DNA of 64,000 nt from contig NZ_FOAO01000003.1 in NCBI RefSeq assembly GCF_900109665.1, positions 62,001-126,000 on the forward strand, read 5' to 3'. The notes under the pieces were generated by a model, which did not search any database, was not told the origin of the DNA, and worked only from the letters and a program-made list of their open reading frames with translations. Made by a program: the position numbers and the translations under genes. Positions 3 to 14,620 of the stretch are shown in pieces; within the stretch, counting starts at the first letter, position 1, and the number at the start of each line of letters is the position of its first letter. The DNA comes from Blastococcus sp. DSM 46786 (lineage in GTDB: Bacteria > Actinomycetota > Actinomycetes > Mycobacteriales > Geodermatophilaceae).

Positions 3-1490
3 TTCGACCGCAGCGGCACGGAGGTGGGGCCGGACGGCATCCGGCGCTACACCGGCCTGCCGCAGAACCTGGTGCAGCTGCTCCGCGCCGCCGTCGACGC
101 GCACCCCGACGCCGAGGCGCTGGCCGAGCTGGGCGGTGAGCGGCTGACCTACCGGCAGCTGTGGGACCGCGCCACGCGGGTCGCCGGTGGGCTGCGGGCG
201 GCCGGTGTGCAGCCGGGTGACCGGGTCGCCAACCGGCTGGGCAACGGGAACGACTGGGTGCTGGTCTTCTGGGGGACGCTGCTCGCCGGGGCCGTCGTCG
301 TCCCGGTGAACACCCGCTTCGCCGAGCCCGAGGTGCGCTACGTCGTCGAGGACTCCGGCGCCGCCGTCGTCGTGGAGCCCGGCGCACCGCTGCCCGATGG
401 GGAGCCGCTCGCGGTGACCGACCAGGGGCACACCGACCTGGCCGGGATCTTCTACACCAGCGGCACGACCGGCTTCCCCAAGGGGGCGATGACCACCCAC
501 GAGAACTTCCTGTCCAACGTCGAGACCTGCCTGCGCTGCCTCGGGCTGCCGCGCGACGAGCCGCTGTCGACGCTGATCTCGGTGCCGCTCTTCCACGTCA
601 CCGGCTGCAACTCCCAGCTGCTGGTCGTCACCGCGGTCGCCGGCCGCGCGGTGGTCATGCCGGTGTTCGAGGTCGGCGCCTTCCTGCGGGCGATCGAGGA
701 GGAGCGCATCTCGGTGGTCACCACGGTGCCGGCGATCTACTGGCTGGCGCTGCAGCAGCCCGGCTTCGCCGATGTCGACACCTCGTCGGTCCGGGCGCTG
801 AGCTACGGGGGCGCGCCGATCGCCCCGGACCTCGTGCACCGCATCAAGGCCGCCTTCCCGACCGCCCGGGTGGGCAACGGCTTCGGTTTGACCGAGACCT
901 CGTCGGTGTCGACCTACCTGCCCGACGAGCACGCCGCCGAACACGCCGACTCGGTCGGGTTCGCCGCTCCCGTCGTCGACCTGGACCTCGCCGACCCCGA
1001 CCCGGCCACCGGCGTGGGCGAGCTGCTGATCCGCGGCCCGAACGTGGTCGCCGGCTACTGGCGCAAGCCGGAGCAGACGGCGGAGACCTTCGTCGACGGC
1101 TGGCTGCACAGCGGCGACCTGGCCCGCATCGACGACGAGGGCCTCGTCCACGTCGTCGACCGCAAGAAGGACATGATCAACCGCGGCGGCGAGAACGTGT
1201 ACTGCGTCGAGGTCGAGAACGCCCTGGCGGCGCACCCCGCCGTCGGCGAGGTCGCCGTGCTCGGGGTGCCGGACCCGATGATGGGCGAGAAGGTCGGTGC
1301 CGTCGTCGTCCCGCTGCCCGGGCGCGACCTGGACCGGGAGGACCTGCTGGCCTTCGCCCGCGAGCGGCTGGCCGACTTCAAGGTGCCGCAGTTCGTCGCC
1401 GTGCGCACCGACCCCCTGCCGCGCAACCCCGGCGGCAAGGTGCTCAAGCCCCCGCTGCGCGAGCAGACCGACTGGCAGACCACCCGCTAG
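3..1490 (+). CDS. AMP-dependent acyl-CoA synthetase/ligase (5' end open)
   Basis: ANL-superfamily enzyme that activates a carboxylic acid with ATP to an acyl-AMP and then forms the CoA thioester. The P-loop YTSGTTGFPKGAM, the GFGLTETSS motif, the HSGDLARIDDEG hinge region, DRKKDMINRGGENVY and the C-terminal catalytic Lys in PRNPGGKVLK are all present. The visible protein is about 490 residues, near the usual 500. The reading frame is open to the window edge. The first candidate GTG (24) has its GGAG directly abutting it, too close for a ribosome site, so the true start is probably just upstream of the window. It ends in TAG. The substrate cannot be read from sequence. A phosphotriesterase-like hydrolase follows in the same direction, which hints at a shared catabolic operon, but this is inference. 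Confidence 0.9.
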   Translation, partial: FDRSGTEVGPDGIRRYTGLPQNLVQLLRAAVDAHPDAEALAELGGERLTYRQLWDRATRVAGGLRAAGVQPGDRVANRLGNGNDWVLVFWGTLLAGAVVVPVNTRFAEPEVRYVVEDSGAAVVVEPGAPLPDGEPLAVTDQGHTDLAGIFYTSGTTGFPKGAMTTHENFLSNVETCLRCLGLPRDEPLSTLISVPLFHVTGCNSQLLVVTAVAGRAVVMPVFEVGAFLRAIEEERISVVTTVPAIYWLALQQPGFADVDTSSVRALSYGGAPIAPDLVHRIKAAFPTARVGNGFGLTETSSVSTYLPDEHAAEHADSVGFAAPVVDLDLADPDPATGVGELLIRGPNVVAGYWRKPEQTAETFVDGWLHSGDLARIDDEGLVHVVDRKKDMINRGGENVYCVEVENALAAHPAVGEVAVLGVPDPMMGEKVGAVVVPLPGRDLDREDLLAFARERLADFKVPQFVAVRTDPLPRNPGGKVLKPPLREQTDWQTTR

Positions 1491-8783: not shown

Positions 8784-9434
8784 CTACCGGACGAACCGGG
8801 TCGCCTCCTCAGGGACGGACCGCCGGGAGAGGACGACGGCCGCCACCAGGACCCAGAGGGGGAGGACGAGCGCGAGCAGGAAGGACAGCGGCGTCACGAG
8901 GCCGACCGCGGCGAGGGCCGCGCTCGCCCAGCCGAACCACCGGGGGAACGCCGTGGTGCGGAGGACGGACACCGCCGTGCCGGCCAGCAGCACGGTCATC
9001 CCCACCGGCGCGGCCAGGCCGGAGAGCGCCAGCCCGCCGTCGTAGAAGACGACGGCGGACTCCGGTGCCAGGCCGGCGGGGCTGCCCGCCCGCAGGGCTC
9101 CGGCCGAGACGAGCGCGAACCCGCCGGCGAGCAGGCCGGTGGCCACGGCACCGCCGAGGCCCGCCATCCGGGCGGGCCACGGGTCAGCGGTCCGCGCGTC
9201 CTCCAGCGCGCGGACGAGCGCCGCCAGGAAGACGGCGAGCGGGACCAGCGCCAGCAGCGACAGCATCATCGCGACGGCGATGCGGTCCGGTGCCGCGGCG
9301 TAGAAACGCAGGACCTCCCCGGGCTCCGCGTGCGGCGCGGGGGTGGTGCCTTGCAGGGCGTTGCCTGCGACGGCGAGCGCGGCGAAGCCGCCGGCGGCGG
9401 CGAGGAGAGCGTGTCGGGACGTGGAGAGGGGCAT
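8784..9434 (-). CDS. Multi-pass membrane protein
   Basis: A 216-residue integral membrane protein with about six hydrophobic helices, beginning MPLSTSRHALLAAAGGFAAL. A periplasmic loop with PHAEPGEVLRFYAAAPDR follows the first helix. It resembles uncharacterised actinobacterial membrane proteins of the DUF4386 type, but I do not recognise a function. It ends 55 nt before the histidine kinase start on the same strand and may be co-transcribed with it. Confidence 0.7.
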   Translation of the reverse strand: MPLSTSRHALLAAAGGFAALAVAGNALQGTTPAPHAEPGEVLRFYAAAPDRIAVAMMLSLLALVPLAVFLAALVRALEDARTADPWPARMAGLGGAVATGLLAGGFALVSAGALRAGSPAGLAPESAVVFYDGGLALSGLAAPVGMTVLLAGTAVSVLRTTAFPRWFGWASAALAAVGLVTPLSFLLALVLPLWVLVAAVVLSRRSVPEEATRFVR

Positions 9435-9599
9435 GGTCGACCTCGTCGGCTGCGGGAGAGCGCCCGCCCGCGGGCCGGTCGGCGCGACCTGGGCCCCGGC
9501 GGTGCGTGGACGTGGCAACGGTCGCGCCCGGCGGTTCCCGCCGTCATCGGGCACCTTCCCCGCCGGCCGGGAAGTTCTCCCGGGTCCCGGGTGCCACCG

Positions 9600-9632
9600 A
9601 CGGCCTGACCGGCCGCCCTCCGGTCAGGCCGT
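9600..9632 (-). terminator. 13-bp hairpin overlapping the dehydrogenase stop
   Basis: Perfect 13-bp inverted repeat (9600-9612 and 9620-9632) with a 7-nt loop. It includes the stop codon of the minus-strand dehydrogenase gene. The probable role is termination of that transcript. Confidence 0.65.
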
Positions 9633-10598
9633 GTCGAGCACGATCTTGTACTGGCCGGCCCGCGGCTGGATCGCGGCGGCGAAGGCGGTCTGGACGTCGT
9701 CGACGGGGTGGACGTCGCTGACGTAGACGTCGCGCAACCCGGGGTGGGCCGCGAGGTACGCGCCCGCGTCCCGCAGCACCCGGGCCCGCTCGAGCGTGAC
9801 CCCGGCGCGCAACGTCAGGTTCTTCCGCAGGAACGTGATCATGTCCAGCGGGTAGACCGGGTCGTCGGGGATGCCGAAGTAGAGGATCTCGCCCCCGGGG
9901 GCAGCGGCGGCCAGGCAGTCCTGCAGCGTGGTCACCTGGTGCCCCACCGCCTCGACGACGACGGACGGGCGGTCGGCGTCCGGGAGGGTCGCGGCCCAGC
10001 GGCTCGCGCTGGCGGTGACGGTCTCGTCCACCCCGAAGGCGCCGGCCGCGGCGCTGCGGTCCACCCGGTCGATGCCGACGACGTGGCGGGCGCCGCGCTG
10101 CTTGAGCACGTGGCTGAACAGCAGCCCGATGGGGCCCTGCCCGACGACGGCGACCGCCTTCCCGCGCACGTCGCCGAGCTGCTCCGCGGCGTAGAGGACG
10201 CAGGCCAGCGGCTGGAGCATGACGGCGGTGGTGGGAGGCAGCGCGGTGTCGTAGCCGGCCAGCCCGTCGCCGTCGGTGACCAGCAGTTCGGCGATCCCGT
10301 CGAACGCGGCCGCCCAGCCGACCACCAGGTCGCCGGGGGAGTGGGCCGGGTGCCGGCTGGCGACCACCTCGCCGACCACCTCGTGCAGCGGGAAGCCGGG
10401 GAACGGCGTCACCGTCCGGTCCGCCGGGTTCGGGGCGTGGAGGAAGGGCGCGCCCTTGAAGAAGGGCAGGTCGCTGCCGCAGATCCCCCCGGCCCTCGTC
10501 GCGAGCAGCACCTGGCCGGCCGCCAGGTCCTCCGCGCGCGGGGCGGCGACCTCCACCCGCTCGAAGGCGAACGGTCCGCTCAGCCGCTGGGCCCACAC
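9624..10598 (-). CDS. Medium-chain zinc-type dehydrogenase (threonine/polyol dehydrogenase-like)
   Basis: MDR-superfamily oxidoreductase of 324 residues. The catalytic-domain start GGICGSDLPFFKG and the Rossmann nucleotide motif VAVVGQGPIGLLFSHVLKQRGA are clear. The four-cysteine structural zinc loop is absent, and the protein is shorter than typical 345-residue members. That fits a divergent polyol- or threonine-dehydrogenase-like branch. I chose the GTG at 10598. The gene is divergent from the SerA-like gene; the 187 nt between them holds both promoters. Substrate unknown. Confidence 0.8.
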   Translation of the reverse strand: MWAQRLSGPFAFERVEVAAPRAEDLAAGQVLLATRAGGICGSDLPFFKGAPFLHAPNPADRTVTPFPGFPLHEVVGEVVASRHPAHSPGDLVVGWAAAFDGIAELLVTDGDGLAGYDTALPPTTAVMLQPLACVLYAAEQLGDVRGKAVAVVGQGPIGLLFSHVLKQRGARHVVGIDRVDRSAAAGAFGVDETVTASASRWAATLPDADRPSVVVEAVGHQVTTLQDCLAAAAPGGEILYFGIPDDPVYPLDMITFLRKNLTLRAGVTLERARVLRDAGAYLAAHPGLRDVYVSDVHPVDDVQTAFAAAIQPRAGQYKIVLDTA

Positions 10599-10785
10599 GT
10601 CGCACCGCCTCCCCCCGCGGCCGCCGGGTGCGGCCGCCCGGGAAGTAGACCAGCGCCGCGCGCCGGGCGCAGCAGGACCGGTCGCAGGACGTCCCGGCGC
10701 CGCCGGGATACTGGTCGGCGTCGCGCACGCCCGGCGACGCGCCGGCGCACCGGCCGGCGGTCCCACGGTCGAGGAGGTCCTGGAC

Positions 10786-11994
10786 GTGCCCAGAGCGCTG
10801 CTGCTGGAGAACATCGACCCGGTCGCGACCGAGATCCTCGGTTCCGCCGGCTACGAGGTCGAGTCCCTGCGCGGGGCGCTCGACGAGGCGGACCTGATCG
10901 CCGCGCTCGACGGCGTCGACCTGCTGGGCATCCGGTCGAAGACGCAGGTGACCGCCGAGGTGCTGCGCAGCCGCCCCGCCCTGGAGGCGGTGGGCGCCTT
11001 CTGCATCGGCACGAACCAGATCGACCTGACGGCGGCCGCGGCGGCGGGCGTGGCGGTGTTCAACGCGCCGTACTCGAACACCCGCAGCGTGGTGGAGATG
11101 GCGATCGCCGAGATCATCATCCTCGCCCGGCGGCTGGTCGACCGCGACCGGTCGCTGCACGCCGGCACGTGGGACAAGTCGGCCGCCGGCAGCCACGAGA
11201 TCCGCGGGCGGACCCTCGGCATCATCGGCTACGGCAACATCGGCAGCCAGTTGTCGGTGCTGGCCGAGGCGCTGGGCATGCGGGTGATCTTCTACGACCT
11301 CGAGGACAAGCTGGCGCTGGGCAACGCGGAGCGGTGCAACAGCCTCGACGAGCTCCTCGAGCGGGCGGAGACCGTCACGCTGCACGTGGACGGGCGGGCG
11401 GGCAACGCCGGCCTGTTCGGGGCCGAGCAGTTCGCCCGGATGCGCCCGCGCAGCCTGTTCCTCAACCTGTCCCGCGGCTTCGTCCTCGACCACGAGGCGC
11501 TGCGCGACAGCATCCTGAGCGGCCACATCGCCGGGGCGGCGGTCGACGTCTTCCCGCACGAGCCGCGCGAGCAGGGGGACGAGTTCACCTCCGTCCTCCG
11601 CGGCCTGCCCAACGTCATCCTCACCCCGCACATCGGCGGGTCGACCCAGGAGGCGCAGCACGACATCGGGCGGTTCGTGGCCGGCAAGCTGGTCGACTAC
11701 ACCGCCACGGGGACGACGACGCTGAGCGTCAACCTGCCCACGGTGGTCCTGCACGGCTCCTCGGCCGACCGTTTCGCGCTGCTGCACCGCAACGTGCCCG
11801 GTGTGCTCGCGCGGGTCGACGCGCTGGTCGGCGAGCACGGCCTCAACGTCGACGCCCAGGTGCTCGCCACGCGCGGGGAGCACGGCTACGCGGTCACCGA
11901 CGTCAGCGCGCCGCTGCCGGCGGACCTGCTCGCGGGGCTCGCCGCGCTGCCGGAGGCCGTGCGCCTGAAGCGCTTCGGGCCCCGGGGCGGCTGA
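10786..11994 (+). CDS. serA: D-3-phosphoglycerate dehydrogenase-like 2-hydroxyacid dehydrogenase
   Basis: D-isomer-specific 2-hydroxyacid dehydrogenase with a C-terminal ACT domain, 402 residues. SerA normally oxidises 3-phosphoglycerate in the first step of serine synthesis. Visible motifs are FCIGTNQIDL, the NAD-binding GIIGYGNIGSQLSVLAEALG, the NLSRG block, the catalytic Glu region VFPHEPREQ and the His in TPHIGGSTQEAQ. The last 75 residues (NVPGVLARVDALVGEHGLNV) are the ACT domain. The length matches the short SerA form of E. coli rather than the 520-residue actinobacterial form, so it may be a second, specialised enzyme. The GTG at 10786 follows GAGGAGGTC by 6-7 nt. Confidence 0.85.
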   Translation: MPRALLLENIDPVATEILGSAGYEVESLRGALDEADLIAALDGVDLLGIRSKTQVTAEVLRSRPALEAVGAFCIGTNQIDLTAAAAAGVAVFNAPYSNTRSVVEMAIAEIIILARRLVDRDRSLHAGTWDKSAAGSHEIRGRTLGIIGYGNIGSQLSVLAEALGMRVIFYDLEDKLALGNAERCNSLDELLERAETVTLHVDGRAGNAGLFGAEQFARMRPRSLFLNLSRGFVLDHEALRDSILSGHIAGAAVDVFPHEPREQGDEFTSVLRGLPNVILTPHIGGSTQEAQHDIGRFVAGKLVDYTATGTTTLSVNLPTVVLHGSSADRFALLHRNVPGVLARVDALVGEHGLNVDAQVLATRGEHGYAVTDVSAPLPADLLAGLAALPEAVRLKRFGPRGG

Positions 11995-12031
11995 CCGCGG
12001 CGCCTCCCTCGCCAGCGGAGCGGCACCTGGG

Positions 12032-12037
12032 TACGGT
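12032..12037 (+). promoter_or_regulatory. -10 box for the selenoprotein operon (leaderless)
   Basis: TACGGT lies 6 nt before the GTG at 12044. Transcription would therefore begin at or next to the start codon, giving a leaderless mRNA. This suggests the thioredoxin-domain and UGSC genes have their own promoter and are not only read through from the SerA-like gene 49 nt upstream. Confidence 0.5.
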
Positions 12038-12043
12038 CGCGTC

Positions 12044-13441
12044 GTGCGGCTCCCGGACGGTCTCGTGGCCGTGGTCAAGCGCGACTGCCCCACCTGCGTC
12101 CTCGTGGAGCCGGTGCTGCGGCGGCTCGGCGCCGCCGTCTGGTGCCAGGACGACGCCGGGTGGTTCGACGGCGACGACACCGAGCTGGAGCTCTCCTACC
12201 GGCTGGGCATCGAGACCGTGCCGACGCTGCTGCGCGTGGCCGACGGTGCCGAGACCGCCCGGGTGGTCGGCTGGAGCCGGGAGCAGTGGGCGGAGCTGAC
12301 CGGCGTCCCCGACCTGGGCGAGGGGCTGCCCGAGCACCGGCCGGGCTGCGGCTCGCTCTCGGTGGACCCGTTCCGGGTCGACGCGCTCGAGGCGCGCTAC
12401 GGCGGCAGCGGGCTGGCCAGCCGGCGGATCGAGCTCGCCGAGCTCGAGGACGAGCACGAGGCGCTGTTCGACCGGGGCTGGACCGACGGGCTGCCCGTCG
12501 TCCCGCCGACGCCCGAGCGGGTGCTGCGGATGCTGCGCGGCACCACCCGGGACCCCGCCGAGGTCGTCGCCGTGGTGCCGCCGGACCTCGTCGAGTGCAC
12601 GGTGGAGAAGGTGGCCGTCAACGCGGTGCTGGCCGGGTGCCTGCCCGAGCACCTGCCGGTGGTGCTCGCCGCGCTCGAGGCGGCGGCCGCCGAGGAGTTC
12701 GCGCTGCACGGGCTGCTGGCGACGACGTACTTCGCCGGGCCGGTGGTGGTGGTCAACGGGCCCGTCGCCGGCCGGATCGGCATGAACAGCGGGGTCAACG
12801 CCCTCGGCCAGGGCAACCGCGCCAACGCCACGATCGGCCGGGCCCTGCAGCTCGTGGTGCGCAACGTCGGCGGCGGCCGCCCCGGCGAGGTGGACCGGGC
12901 CACCCTGGGCAACCCCGGCAAGTTCACCTTCTGCTTCGCCGAGCGCGAGCACGACAGCCCGTTCGCCCCGCTGGCCGCCGACCGCGGGGTGGCCGGCGAT
13001 GCGGTGACGGTGTTCGCCGGGTCGGGCGTGCAGCCGGTGGTCGACCAGCTCAGCCGCGACCCGGCGTCGCTGGCGCGCACCTTCGCGGCCTGCCTGCGCG
13101 TGAACGCCCACCCGAAGCTGCCGATGGCGTTCGACGCGATGCTCGTGGTCTCGCCCGAGCACGGCCGGGTGTTCCGCGAGGCGGGCTGGGACCGCGCCCG
13201 CCTGCTGGCCGAGCTCGAGGAGCTGCTGACGCTGCCCGCCGACGAGCTGGTGCGCGGGGCCGGCGGCATGGCCGAGGGGGTGCCCGCCGGGCTGGCCGGC
13301 GCCGACCTGCCGAAGTTCCGGCCCGGTGGTCTGCTGGTGGCGCACGCCGGCGGCGACGCCGGGCTGTTCAGCGCGGTCGTGGGCGGCTGGGTGTCCGGGG
13401 AGACCGGGAGCGCCCCGGTGACGAGAGAGGTGCGCGCATGA
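12044..13441 (+). CDS. Thioredoxin-domain protein fused to a UGSC-associated domain
   Basis: A 465-residue protein. Residues 1-90 form a short thioredoxin/glutaredoxin-like domain with the redox pair CPTC (Cys15, Cys18) and the cis-Pro segment IETVPTLL. A long domain follows, opening with RPGCGSLSVDPF and GWTDGLPVVPPTPERVLRML and rich in conserved Gly/Asn stretches such as GPVAGRIGMNSGVNALGQGN. I know this second domain only as a companion of UGSC proteins; its activity is not established. Its stop codon overlaps the start of the UGSC gene by 4 nt (ATGA), so the two are translationally coupled. A role as electron donor or partner enzyme for the selenoprotein is a reasonable inference. The start is a GTG with a -10 box just before it and no leader. 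Confidence 0.82.
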   Translation: MRLPDGLVAVVKRDCPTCVLVEPVLRRLGAAVWCQDDAGWFDGDDTELELSYRLGIETVPTLLRVADGAETARVVGWSREQWAELTGVPDLGEGLPEHRPGCGSLSVDPFRVDALEARYGGSGLASRRIELAELEDEHEALFDRGWTDGLPVVPPTPERVLRMLRGTTRDPAEVVAVVPPDLVECTVEKVAVNAVLAGCLPEHLPVVLAALEAAAAEEFALHGLLATTYFAGPVVVVNGPVAGRIGMNSGVNALGQGNRANATIGRALQLVVRNVGGGRPGEVDRATLGNPGKFTFCFAEREHDSPFAPLAADRGVAGDAVTVFAGSGVQPVVDQLSRDPASLARTFAACLRVNAHPKLPMAFDAMLVVSPEHGRVFREAGWDRARLLAELEELLTLPADELVRGAGGMAEGVPAGLAGADLPKFRPGGLLVAHAGGDAGLFSAVVGGWVSGETGSAPVTREVRA

Positions 13442-13956
13442 GGACCGTCCTGGACCCGACCGGCGAGCGGCAGGCGTCCGCCCGCGAGCTGCTGCCCCGC
13501 CCGGAGACGCTGCGCGGCCGCAGCGTGGGGCTGCTCGACATCAGCAAGGCGCGCGGCGACGTCGTGCTCGACCGTCTCGCGGAGCTGCTCGCCGCCGACG
13601 GTGCGCTCGTGCGCCGGTACCGCAAGCCGACCTTCGCCCGCACCGCCCCGGTGGACCTGCGGCACGAGATCGCCGAGCAGTGCGAGGTGGTCATCGAGGC
13701 GCTCGCCGATTAGGGCTCGTGCACGTCGTGCAGTGTGCACGACATCGCCGACCTCGAGCGCCGCGGCGTCGTCGGGGTGTTCCTCGCCAGCGAGGCCTTC
13801 GCCGAGGCCGCCCGCCTGCAGGGCGCGGCCCTGGGGTTCCCCGCGCCGTGCGTCCTCGCCCCGCACCCGGTCCAGGACCGCACCGACGCGGAGCTGCGGG
13901 CGGCCGCGGAGGCGGCGTACCCGGCGGTGCTGGCCGCCGTCACCTCCGCGGGGTGA
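13438..13956 (+). CDS. UGSC-family selenoprotein with in-frame TAG read as selenocysteine
   Basis: The frame opened by ATG 13438 runs through an in-frame TAG at 13711-13713 and continues without further stops to TGA at 13954-13956, giving 172 residues if TAG is read. The residues around it are ALAD-(TAG)-GSCTSCSVHD, so TAG falls exactly on the U of the UGSC signature. Cys95 and Cys98 follow it as a CxxC. The downstream half (DIADLERRGVVGVFLAS, then GAALGFPAPCVLAPHPVQ) belongs to the same family domain and keeps the same frame and codon bias. A pseudogene would not be expected to place its only stop at the one position where relatives carry selenocysteine. UAG-decoded selenocysteine was reported for Geodermatophilus and Blastococcus (recalled: Mukai and colleagues, 2016). 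An annotation pipeline would truncate this gene at residue 91 or split it. The biochemical role of UGSC proteins is unknown; a redox function with the coupled thioredoxin-domain protein is inferred. Confidence 0.88.
13717..13742 (+). promoter_or_regulatory. Candidate bacterial SECIS stem-loop
   Basis: Three nt after the TAG, TCGTGCAC (13717-13724) pairs perfectly with GTGCACGA (13735-13742), enclosing GTCGTGCAGT. A G-U closing pair would leave an 8-nt apical loop containing GU. Bacterial SECIS elements lie within the coding sequence just after the Sec codon, so the location fits. The distance from TAG to the loop (about 12 nt) is a little shorter than in E. coli fdhF. A smaller alternative hairpin (TGCAC-GTC-GTGCA, 13720-13732) competes. 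Confidence 0.6.
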
Positions 13957-13975
13957 CGTGCGTGCCGGTCGCTGC

Positions 13976-13981
13976 CAGGGT
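13976..13981 (+). promoter_or_regulatory. -10-like CAGGGT before the AhpD-like gene
   Basis: CAGGGT is 6 nt before the GTG at 13988, within GTCGCTGCCAGGGTGGGC. Almost the same string precedes the gene at 44254 (GTCGCTGGCAGGGTGGGC). Both would give leaderless transcripts. Confidence 0.4.
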
Positions 13982-13987
13982 GGGCCG

Positions 13988-14620
13988 GTGACCGAGATGC
14001 CGATCAGCCGCTTCCCCCTCCGGCCCGCCGACGAGCTGCCCCCCGACCTGGCCGAGCGCTACGCGGGGGTGGCGGAGAAGTCGGGCTTCCTGCCCAACGT
14101 CTTCGCCGCGCTCGCCTGGCGGCCGGACGAGGCGCGGGCGTTCTTCGCGATGCACGACGCGCTCATGGACAAGGAGACGCCGGGGCTCTCCAAGGCCGAC
14201 CGCGAGCTGATCGTGGTGGCGACCAGCGCCGGCAACGACTGCCTGTACTGCGTCGTCGCCCACGGCGCCGTCGCCCGCATCCGCAGCAAGGACCCGCACA
14301 TCGCCGACCACGTCGCCGTGGACTGGCGGAAGGCGCCGCTGTCGCCGCGCATGCACGCCGTGCTCGCGGTGGCCACCCGGCTGGCGGCCGATCCGGCCTC
14401 GGTCACCGCCGCGGACCTGGCCACCCTCACCGAGCACGGCCTGACCGAGGACGACGTGTGGGACGTCGGCATGATCACGTCGTTCTTCGCGCTCTCCAAC
14501 CGGCTGGCGCACTTCGCGGCGATAACGCCGAACCCGGAGTTCTTCCTGATGGGCCGGCTGCCGCGGGGCGCCGAGGCGCCGCAGGGTGGTTCCCGGGCGG
14601 GCGAGCCCCCGACGGGTTGA
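13988..14620 (+). CDS. AhpD-like peroxidase-related protein
   Basis: Carboxymuconolactone-decarboxylase/AhpD fold of the 'uncharacterised peroxidase-related enzyme' type, 210 residues. It retains the redox pair in NDCLYCVVAHG (Cys85, Cys88) with the downstream His, as in AhpD. The family signature GLSKADRELIVVATSAGN precedes it. It starts with GTG 31 nt after the UGSC stop codon. Its position next to a thioredoxin-domain protein and a selenoprotein suggests a peroxide or disulfide redox group, which is inference from context. Confidence 0.85.
   Translation: MTEMPISRFPLRPADELPPDLAERYAGVAEKSGFLPNVFAALAWRPDEARAFFAMHDALMDKETPGLSKADRELIVVATSAGNDCLYCVVAHGAVARIRSKDPHIADHVAVDWRKAPLSPRMHAVLAVATRLAADPASVTAADLATLTEHGLTEDDVWDVGMITSFFALSNRLAHFAAITPNPEFFLMGRLPRGAEAPQGGSRAGEPPTG

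Follow-up and report, generated by a model that had tools for sequence, protein, structure and literature searches.

A UGSC-family gene of Blastococcus sp. DSM 46786 that very probably specifies selenocysteine by UAG, and the range of this codon usage in the Geodermatophilaceae

INTRODUCTION

The roles of SelA, SelB, and SelD in the synthesis and delivery of selenocysteine (Sec) are well established. Published work is cited below by PMC number. The use of UAG as a Sec codon in the Geodermatophilaceae, in formate dehydrogenases (FDHs) and in selenoproteins with a UGSC motif, was reported by Mukai and colleagues, as related in PMC5330540, which itself adds an AhpC gene of Blastococcus saxobsidens DD2 that has UAG. 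The presence of UAG in Blastococcus is also stated in PMC5133445. The UGSC family itself, with UGA, was named in PMC2398784, and a review from 2026 counts the UGSC-containing protein among the selenoproteins whose functions are largely uncharacterized (PMC13188914). In the bacterial Sec insertion sequence (bSECIS) model, the element has a loop of 3 to 9 nt, a stem of 4 to 16 bp, a distance of 16 to 37 nt between codon and loop, and, near the start of the loop, a G followed by either G or U (PMC13188914). Recoding of UGA competes with termination, and its efficiency in vivo was 30 to 40% in the system studied (PMC4513850).

Here we describe a UGSC-family gene in a 64,000-nucleotide stretch of the genome of Blastococcus sp. 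DSM 46786 (the window; contig C16:62001-126000 of an assembly with 4,587,055 bases in 47 contigs, 99.99% complete). A reading of this DNA from its sequence only had noted that a UAG-decoding tRNA-Sec was reported in Geodermatophilus and Blastococcus (Mukai 2016), which PMC5330540 bears out, and had suggested that the present locus may not have been described. This stands for the species and falls for the kind, as UAG-encoded Sec in the Geodermatophilaceae, UGSC proteins included, has been known since 2016 to 2017 (PMC5330540). What is added here is the range of the switch, with a family-wide count and the border to sister genera whose tRNA-Sec has the anticodon UCA, and an AhpD-related UAG gene that is perhaps unreported.

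RESULTS

A UGSC-family gene with one in-frame TAG

The locus has the following features (window positions).

12044 to 13441, plus strand: partner gene, with a thioredoxin-like domain carrying CPTC and a domain of about 300 residues; overlaps the start of the UGSC gene by 4 nt
13438 to 13956, plus strand: UGSC-family gene, very probably a selenoprotein gene (PF24696, NF041046, translation); 172 residues with TAG read as Sec; stop codon TGA
13711 to 13713, plus strand: in-frame TAG, the predicted Sec codon, residue 92, the U of UGSC (translation and family comparison)
13725 to 13743, plus strand: apical hairpin of a bacterial SECIS, with an 8-bp stem GUCGUGCA/UGCACGAC and a GUG loop, separated from the UAG by 11 nt

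Translation of the gene gave 91 residues, the TAG, 80 further residues, and a TGA stop codon, and the ATG at 13438 shares 4 nt with the TGA of the gene upstream. With the TAG read as U, the 172-residue product matched the Pfam UGSC family PF24696 (E value of 3.7e-42; 144.8 bits; cutoff, 25) from residue 3 to residue 169, corresponding to profile positions 1 to 171 of 172, and the NCBIfam family UGSC_fam NF041046 (140.5 bits; cutoff, 125). When 38 of the fetched UGSC sequences were aligned with U written as C, the columns of residue 92 and C95 were invariant, and the chain of the Cys-containing relatives ran uninterrupted through the Sec position. The sequence-only reading had placed a single in-frame TAG exactly at the U of UGSC, had assigned both sides of it to one conserved domain, and had noted the 4-nt overlap; translation, profile match, and alignment agree with it on each of these points.

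TAG at the Sec position of UGSC genes in the family

Among 112 Geodermatophilaceae genomes, 54 had UGSC matches. The 95 matches listed comprised 72 with one TAG, none with TGA, and 23 without a stop codon. In the fetched matches that were read, every TAG fell on the residue aligned to U, and the 12 stop-free matches that were read (of the 23) all had a Cys codon there. In a sample of the same order (298 genomes, family members included), 21 genomes from outside the family had 28 UGSC matches, 15 of them with TGA, none with TAG, and 13 without a stop. The best 80 UGSC loci from named genomes comprised 21 with TAG, all from Blastococcus or Geodermatophilus, and 59 with TGA, all from outside these two genera. 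Among the named loci, those closest to the window gene are from Blastococcus. At the aligned Sec position, all UGSC relatives that were read had TAG, TGA, or a Cys codon. Four UGA-type loci (L101, L107, L130, and L095) come from assembled bins that carry the name Bifidobacterium breve or Ferrithrix thermotolerans; in the tree, they group with other uncultured actinobacterial bins, and the names look wrong.

Standard annotation would take the TAG for a real stop, and the gene would then encode a truncated protein of 91 residues, be a pseudogene, or contain a sequencing error. TAG does serve as an ordinary stop in the window, where 41 roughly predicted ORFs, chosen on the basis of composition, end in TGA (31 ORFs) or TAG (10 ORFs). 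We nevertheless consider a real stop at this position highly improbable. Each of the 72 stop-containing family matches has one TAG, at the same residue where read, and relatives outside the family have TGA at that residue. The half of the gene beyond the TAG is conserved (54 to 95% identity in 80 loci), as is the hairpin within it, and a matching CUA tRNA is present in the genome. Each of the 21 loci read from named Blastococcus and Geodermatophilus genomes has TAG, which speaks against a base-calling error at 13711 to 13713, an objection that the sequence-only reading had itself raised; chance or sequencing error is very unlikely as the source of the codon.

A tRNA-Sec with the anticodon CUA and the sel genes

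The same genome has the following genes in one cluster (positions in L009, a stretch of contig C18).

12469 to 12560, minus strand: tRNA-Sec(CUA) (RF01852)
11118 to 12434, minus strand: selA, directly downstream of tRNA-Sec on the same strand, recognized from the ORF translation
9352 to 11127, minus strand: selB (TIGR00475), on the same strand, beyond selA
13206 to 14213, plus strand: selD, upstream of tRNA-Sec and divergent, recognized from the ORF translation

The tRNA gene, at C18:67468-67559, matched RF01852 with 67.7 bits (gathering score, 47), the best Rfam family at this site. The SelB product matched TIGR00475 with 279 bits (cutoff, 242.25). The names selA and selD are those that we take the ORF translations to indicate; SelD has a cysteine in the motif GGGCACK. 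All four genes that had been proposed for a search of the genome are accordingly found. The stop codon of selB is TAG (L009 9352-9354), and the presumed factor for Sec delivery at UAG is thus itself terminated by this codon.

We could read tRNA-Sec in 108 of the 112 family genomes, taking the best match per genome and both matches in G036 and G058; G067, G071, G097, and G098 were without a match strong enough for reading. These 110 tRNAs comprised 102 with CUA, which all have one identical anticodon arm, and 8 with UCA. Seven of the eight UCA tRNAs belong to three genera of the same family (g5, g6, and g7; seven genomes), and homologs of the sel genes adjoin tRNA-Sec in these sister genera too: selA and selB lie near the tRNA in four of the five UCA stretches searched, and in the fifth (L194), in which the tRNA lies directly at the end of a contig of 5.4 kb, neither gene was matched. 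The CUA tRNA pattern occurred in 2 of 394 genomes of the class, both of the genus of the window, in a search that would miss other D-arm lengths. In the open-license literature searched, we found no mention of the UCA sister genera.

ARAGORN named the CUA tRNA "tRNA-Pyl," presumably on account of its anticodon, which would fit a reading of UAG as pyrrolysine or by an ordinary amber suppressor tRNA rather than as Sec. There is very little room for this reading. By covariance model, the tRNA is best described as tRNA-Sec and did not qualify as tRNA-Pyl, it adjoins selA and selB, and similar UCA tRNAs stand beside selA and selB in the sister genera. The codons found at the aligned position in the UGSC relatives, TAG, TGA, or Cys, also argue against it.

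Five further genes with TAG at the Sec position

In addition to the gene in the window, we found five genes elsewhere in the genome that have one TAG each, so that six genes from four families have TAG at the Sec position (two UGSC genes, two FDH genes, one AhpD-related gene, and one peroxiredoxin-like gene).

Contig C14: second UGSC gene, one TAG at the Sec position
Contigs C6 and C21: two formate dehydrogenase genes, one TAG each, in the context R-I-TAG-H
Contig C40 (L239): AhpD-related gene (NF041238, 226.5 bits with a neighboring match), in the context CFY-TAG
Contig C26 (L237): peroxiredoxin-like gene (PF00578), in the context W-TAG-PYC

The TAG between Ile and His of the FDHs stands at what we take to be the Sec position, and the TAG after CFY in the AhpD-related gene fits the family name CFYUT (NF041238). 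Among the 10 matches to PF00578 in the genome, 9 have no in-frame stop and 1 has the TAG. We found no mention of an AhpD-related selenoprotein with UAG in the open-license literature searched, and UAG in this type (CFYU) is perhaps unreported before.

Termination at the UAG followed by reinitiation downstream, yielding a free C-terminal piece, has nothing in its favor except the prediction to be expected of annotation software and is the least credible of the alternatives, as six genes from four families have TAG at the known Sec position with the domain on both sides and the chain is continuous in the aligned Cys relatives. Since TAG ends 10 of the 41 rough window ORFs, UAG is most likely recoded in context and not reassigned. 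UAG also remains the stop codon of selB, and we therefore expect some of the product of the UGSC gene to end at residue 91.

A conserved SECIS hairpin

Downstream of its TAG, the UGSC gene has a bacterial SECIS hairpin that shows conservation of the RNA. The loop of this hairpin, 3 nt with G and then U, is 19 nt from the codon. We examined conservation in 95 distinct loci of the UGSC type of the window only (31 with TAG and 64 with TGA). Six of the seven codons from +4 to +10 showed no synonymous variation, and none of 50 other conserved codons was free of it (Fisher P = 1.9e-7, to be taken only as a guide, given the relatedness of the sequences). The 64 TGA loci taken separately gave 6 of 7 hairpin codons versus 0 of 53 elsewhere. 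Among the 31 TAG loci, the signal was weaker (6 of 7 versus 25 of 86; P = 0.005) because these are close relatives. The commonest hairpin sequence is common to users of TAG (27 loci) and of TGA (36 loci). In the second UGSC gene of the genome, the stem is GUCGUGGA/UCCACGAC, with one base pair changed and pairing kept; in the FDH genes with TAG, the stem begins with GGUGCCC, and GGUCU lies in or at the loop.

The bSECIS model with a stem of at least 7 bp was matched by all six Sec-TAG sites (7 to 8 bp) and, of the 237 other TAGs that the window contains, by 12; at its minimum of 4 bp, it did not discriminate, and 128 of the 237 other TAGs passed. A spacing of exactly 11 nt was found at four of the six sites, the peroxiredoxin-like and AhpD-related sites being the exceptions; the hairpin of the AhpD-related site is weak. 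The folding energy of the single window sequence was little better than that of shuffled sequences (z scores of -1.2 for 50 nt, -1.9 for 40 nt, and -0.4 for 66 nt), and the proof of the hairpin rests on conservation and not on these values.

A possible course of the codon switch

We constructed a tree of UGSC proteins after removal of identical sequences (122 rows, including the window). In the free tree, L073, which has TGA, separates two clades of window-type TAG sequences, with a fork support of 100/97. Two further UGSC types contain TAG as well. Mapping the TAG label over this whole tree, in which several long branches (L182, L174, L034, and L021) are unsure, requires at least four changes, and a smaller tree requires two. 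An approximately unbiased (AU) test with all 31 TAG rows held together did not reject this arrangement (P = 0.207). The trees make a repeated conversion of UGSC genes to TAG possible, and the TGA of L073 may reflect a reversal.

The UGSC copies found in g5 to g7 (two in G066 and one in G072) have no stop codon, and for this reason the codon comparison for these genera rests on FDH. In genus g7, FDH matches of G071, G072, G073, and G074 carry TGA (among the matches listed; two were read at the Sec position), and these are of types different from the FDHs with TAG in the source genome and do not form a like-for-like pair with them. The highest-scoring FDHs of the crown genera have no internal stop among the matches listed, and a quick look in four of these loci found no Sec-site residue. 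A tentative scenario, which we put at somewhat below even odds, is that the switch from UGA to UAG took place after the crown genera had split from the three UCA sister genera and that the selenoprotein genes changed over one by one, copies gained later by transfer perhaps among them.

One genome, G058, has a CUA tRNA-Sec together with a complete second tRNA-Sec with UCA (81.8 bits; L193 [G058:C17:1-20000], 1173 to 1263, minus strand). Its nearest matches among the 394 genomes of the class are 84 to 87% identical. The 20-kb stretch L193 has transposase-like ORFs and gave no match to selA, selB, or selD, and no UGSC or FDH gene with TGA was among the matches listed for G058. This organism might be capable of reading both codes; the UCA tRNA could also be a transferred gene, a remnant of an integration site, or contamination.

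Partner gene, neighborhood, and fold

Relatives of the partner gene lie directly upstream of the UGSC gene in 71 of the 80 loci, with 0 to 98 bases between the matches. Among the other nine, a partner match lies further off in two (L123 and L139) and is absent in seven, four of which have fewer than 400 bases upstream of the UGSC gene. The N-terminal domain of the partner matched Thioredoxin_2 with an E value of 0.0004, below the cutoff of Pfam, and was matched to thioredoxin chains by sequence as well as by fold. In an alignment of 20 partner sequences, the motif is CPTC, with CATC in some relatives. For the second domain, of about 300 residues, we found no Pfam family and no convincing fold (model pLDDT, 79). 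On contig C14, the second UGSC gene is followed by two genes (L190 8039-8845 and 9203-9973) that resemble this second domain and are without the thioredoxin part. ARAGORN also placed a tRNA-Pro (cgg) at 12094 to 12183, inside the partner gene; this looks false, and Rfam at gathering scores returned nothing across the window.

Downstream, the neighbor at around 13990 to 14619, read in frame, is a peroxidase-related, AhpD-like gene. Because an AhpD-like neighbor and HpaI occur near UGSC in only 2 and 3 of the 80 loci, respectively, we left both out of the unit.

In the structural model of the UGSC protein (pLDDT, 94; pTM, 0.87), five strands and the helices between them alternate. Sec92 immediately precedes the helix after the third strand, and Cys95 follows three residues on (UxxC). 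Fold matches were mostly generic Rossmann-, flavodoxin-, or receiver-like; the absence of thioredoxin from the match list excludes nothing. By the model, the protein would be an alpha/beta domain of the flavodoxin- or Rossmann-like kind, in which a helix starts at Sec92. A thioredoxin-like fold had been a guess in an earlier paper (PMC2398784). We found no support for a kinship of UGSC with the selenoproteins of glycine and proline reductase.

DISCUSSION

Our results indicate that the UGSC gene of Blastococcus sp. DSM 46786 is very probably (about 0.95) a selenoprotein gene in which UAG would specify Sec. The suggestion of an alternative Sec codon, made at the outset from the letters of the locus, has gained the support of tRNA-Sec(CUA), the sel genes, the SECIS hairpin, and the TAG of the UGSC genes in the family. 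In the mechanism that we propose, SelA would convert Ser-tRNA-Sec(CUA) to Sec-tRNA-Sec with selenium supplied by SelD, and SelB would bring Sec-tRNA-Sec to the ribosome, positioned by the hairpin that begins 11 nt past the UAG. A UAG with such a hairpin would be read as Sec, and other UAG codons would lead to termination.

The UGSC protein most likely acts as a redox enzyme, with the thioredoxin domain of the partner as the reductant of its Sec92-Cys95 pair; we infer the activity, the electron transfer, and the cotranscription of the two genes. The role of the partner as electron donor is suggested by the order of the genes and by its weak match to thioredoxin, and our best guess for its second domain is that it binds the substrate.

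These results provide genome-wide support for a rare natural change in codon meaning, and annotation would cut UAG-selenoprotein genes short. Within one family, the usual and the changed states are found in gene clusters of one kind, which opens the path of the codon switch to experiment; for this, tRNA and mRNA hairpin could be exchanged between close relatives.

The locus can be compared with four described systems. With the pyrrolysine system (PMC10778597), it has in common the reading of an amber codon by a tRNA with the anticodon CUA, but here the tRNA is tRNA-Sec by covariance model and UAG would be recoded in a SECIS context, not reassigned. Its hairpin resembles the bacterial SECIS element (PMC13188914) in the 8-bp stem, the 3-nt G-U loop, and the 19-nt distance, and it follows UAG, whereas the element described there follows UGA. 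UGA-type UGSC selenoproteins have the same domain, motif, SECIS hairpin sequence, and upstream thioredoxin-like partner and differ in the Sec codon, which is UGA there and UAG here. The closest system is the UAG-Sec of the Geodermatophilaceae (PMC5330540), which shares tRNA-Sec(CUA) and UAG at the Sec position of FDH and UGSC proteins; to this, the present genome adds what is apparently another Blastococcus species and an AhpD-related UAG gene (NF041238).
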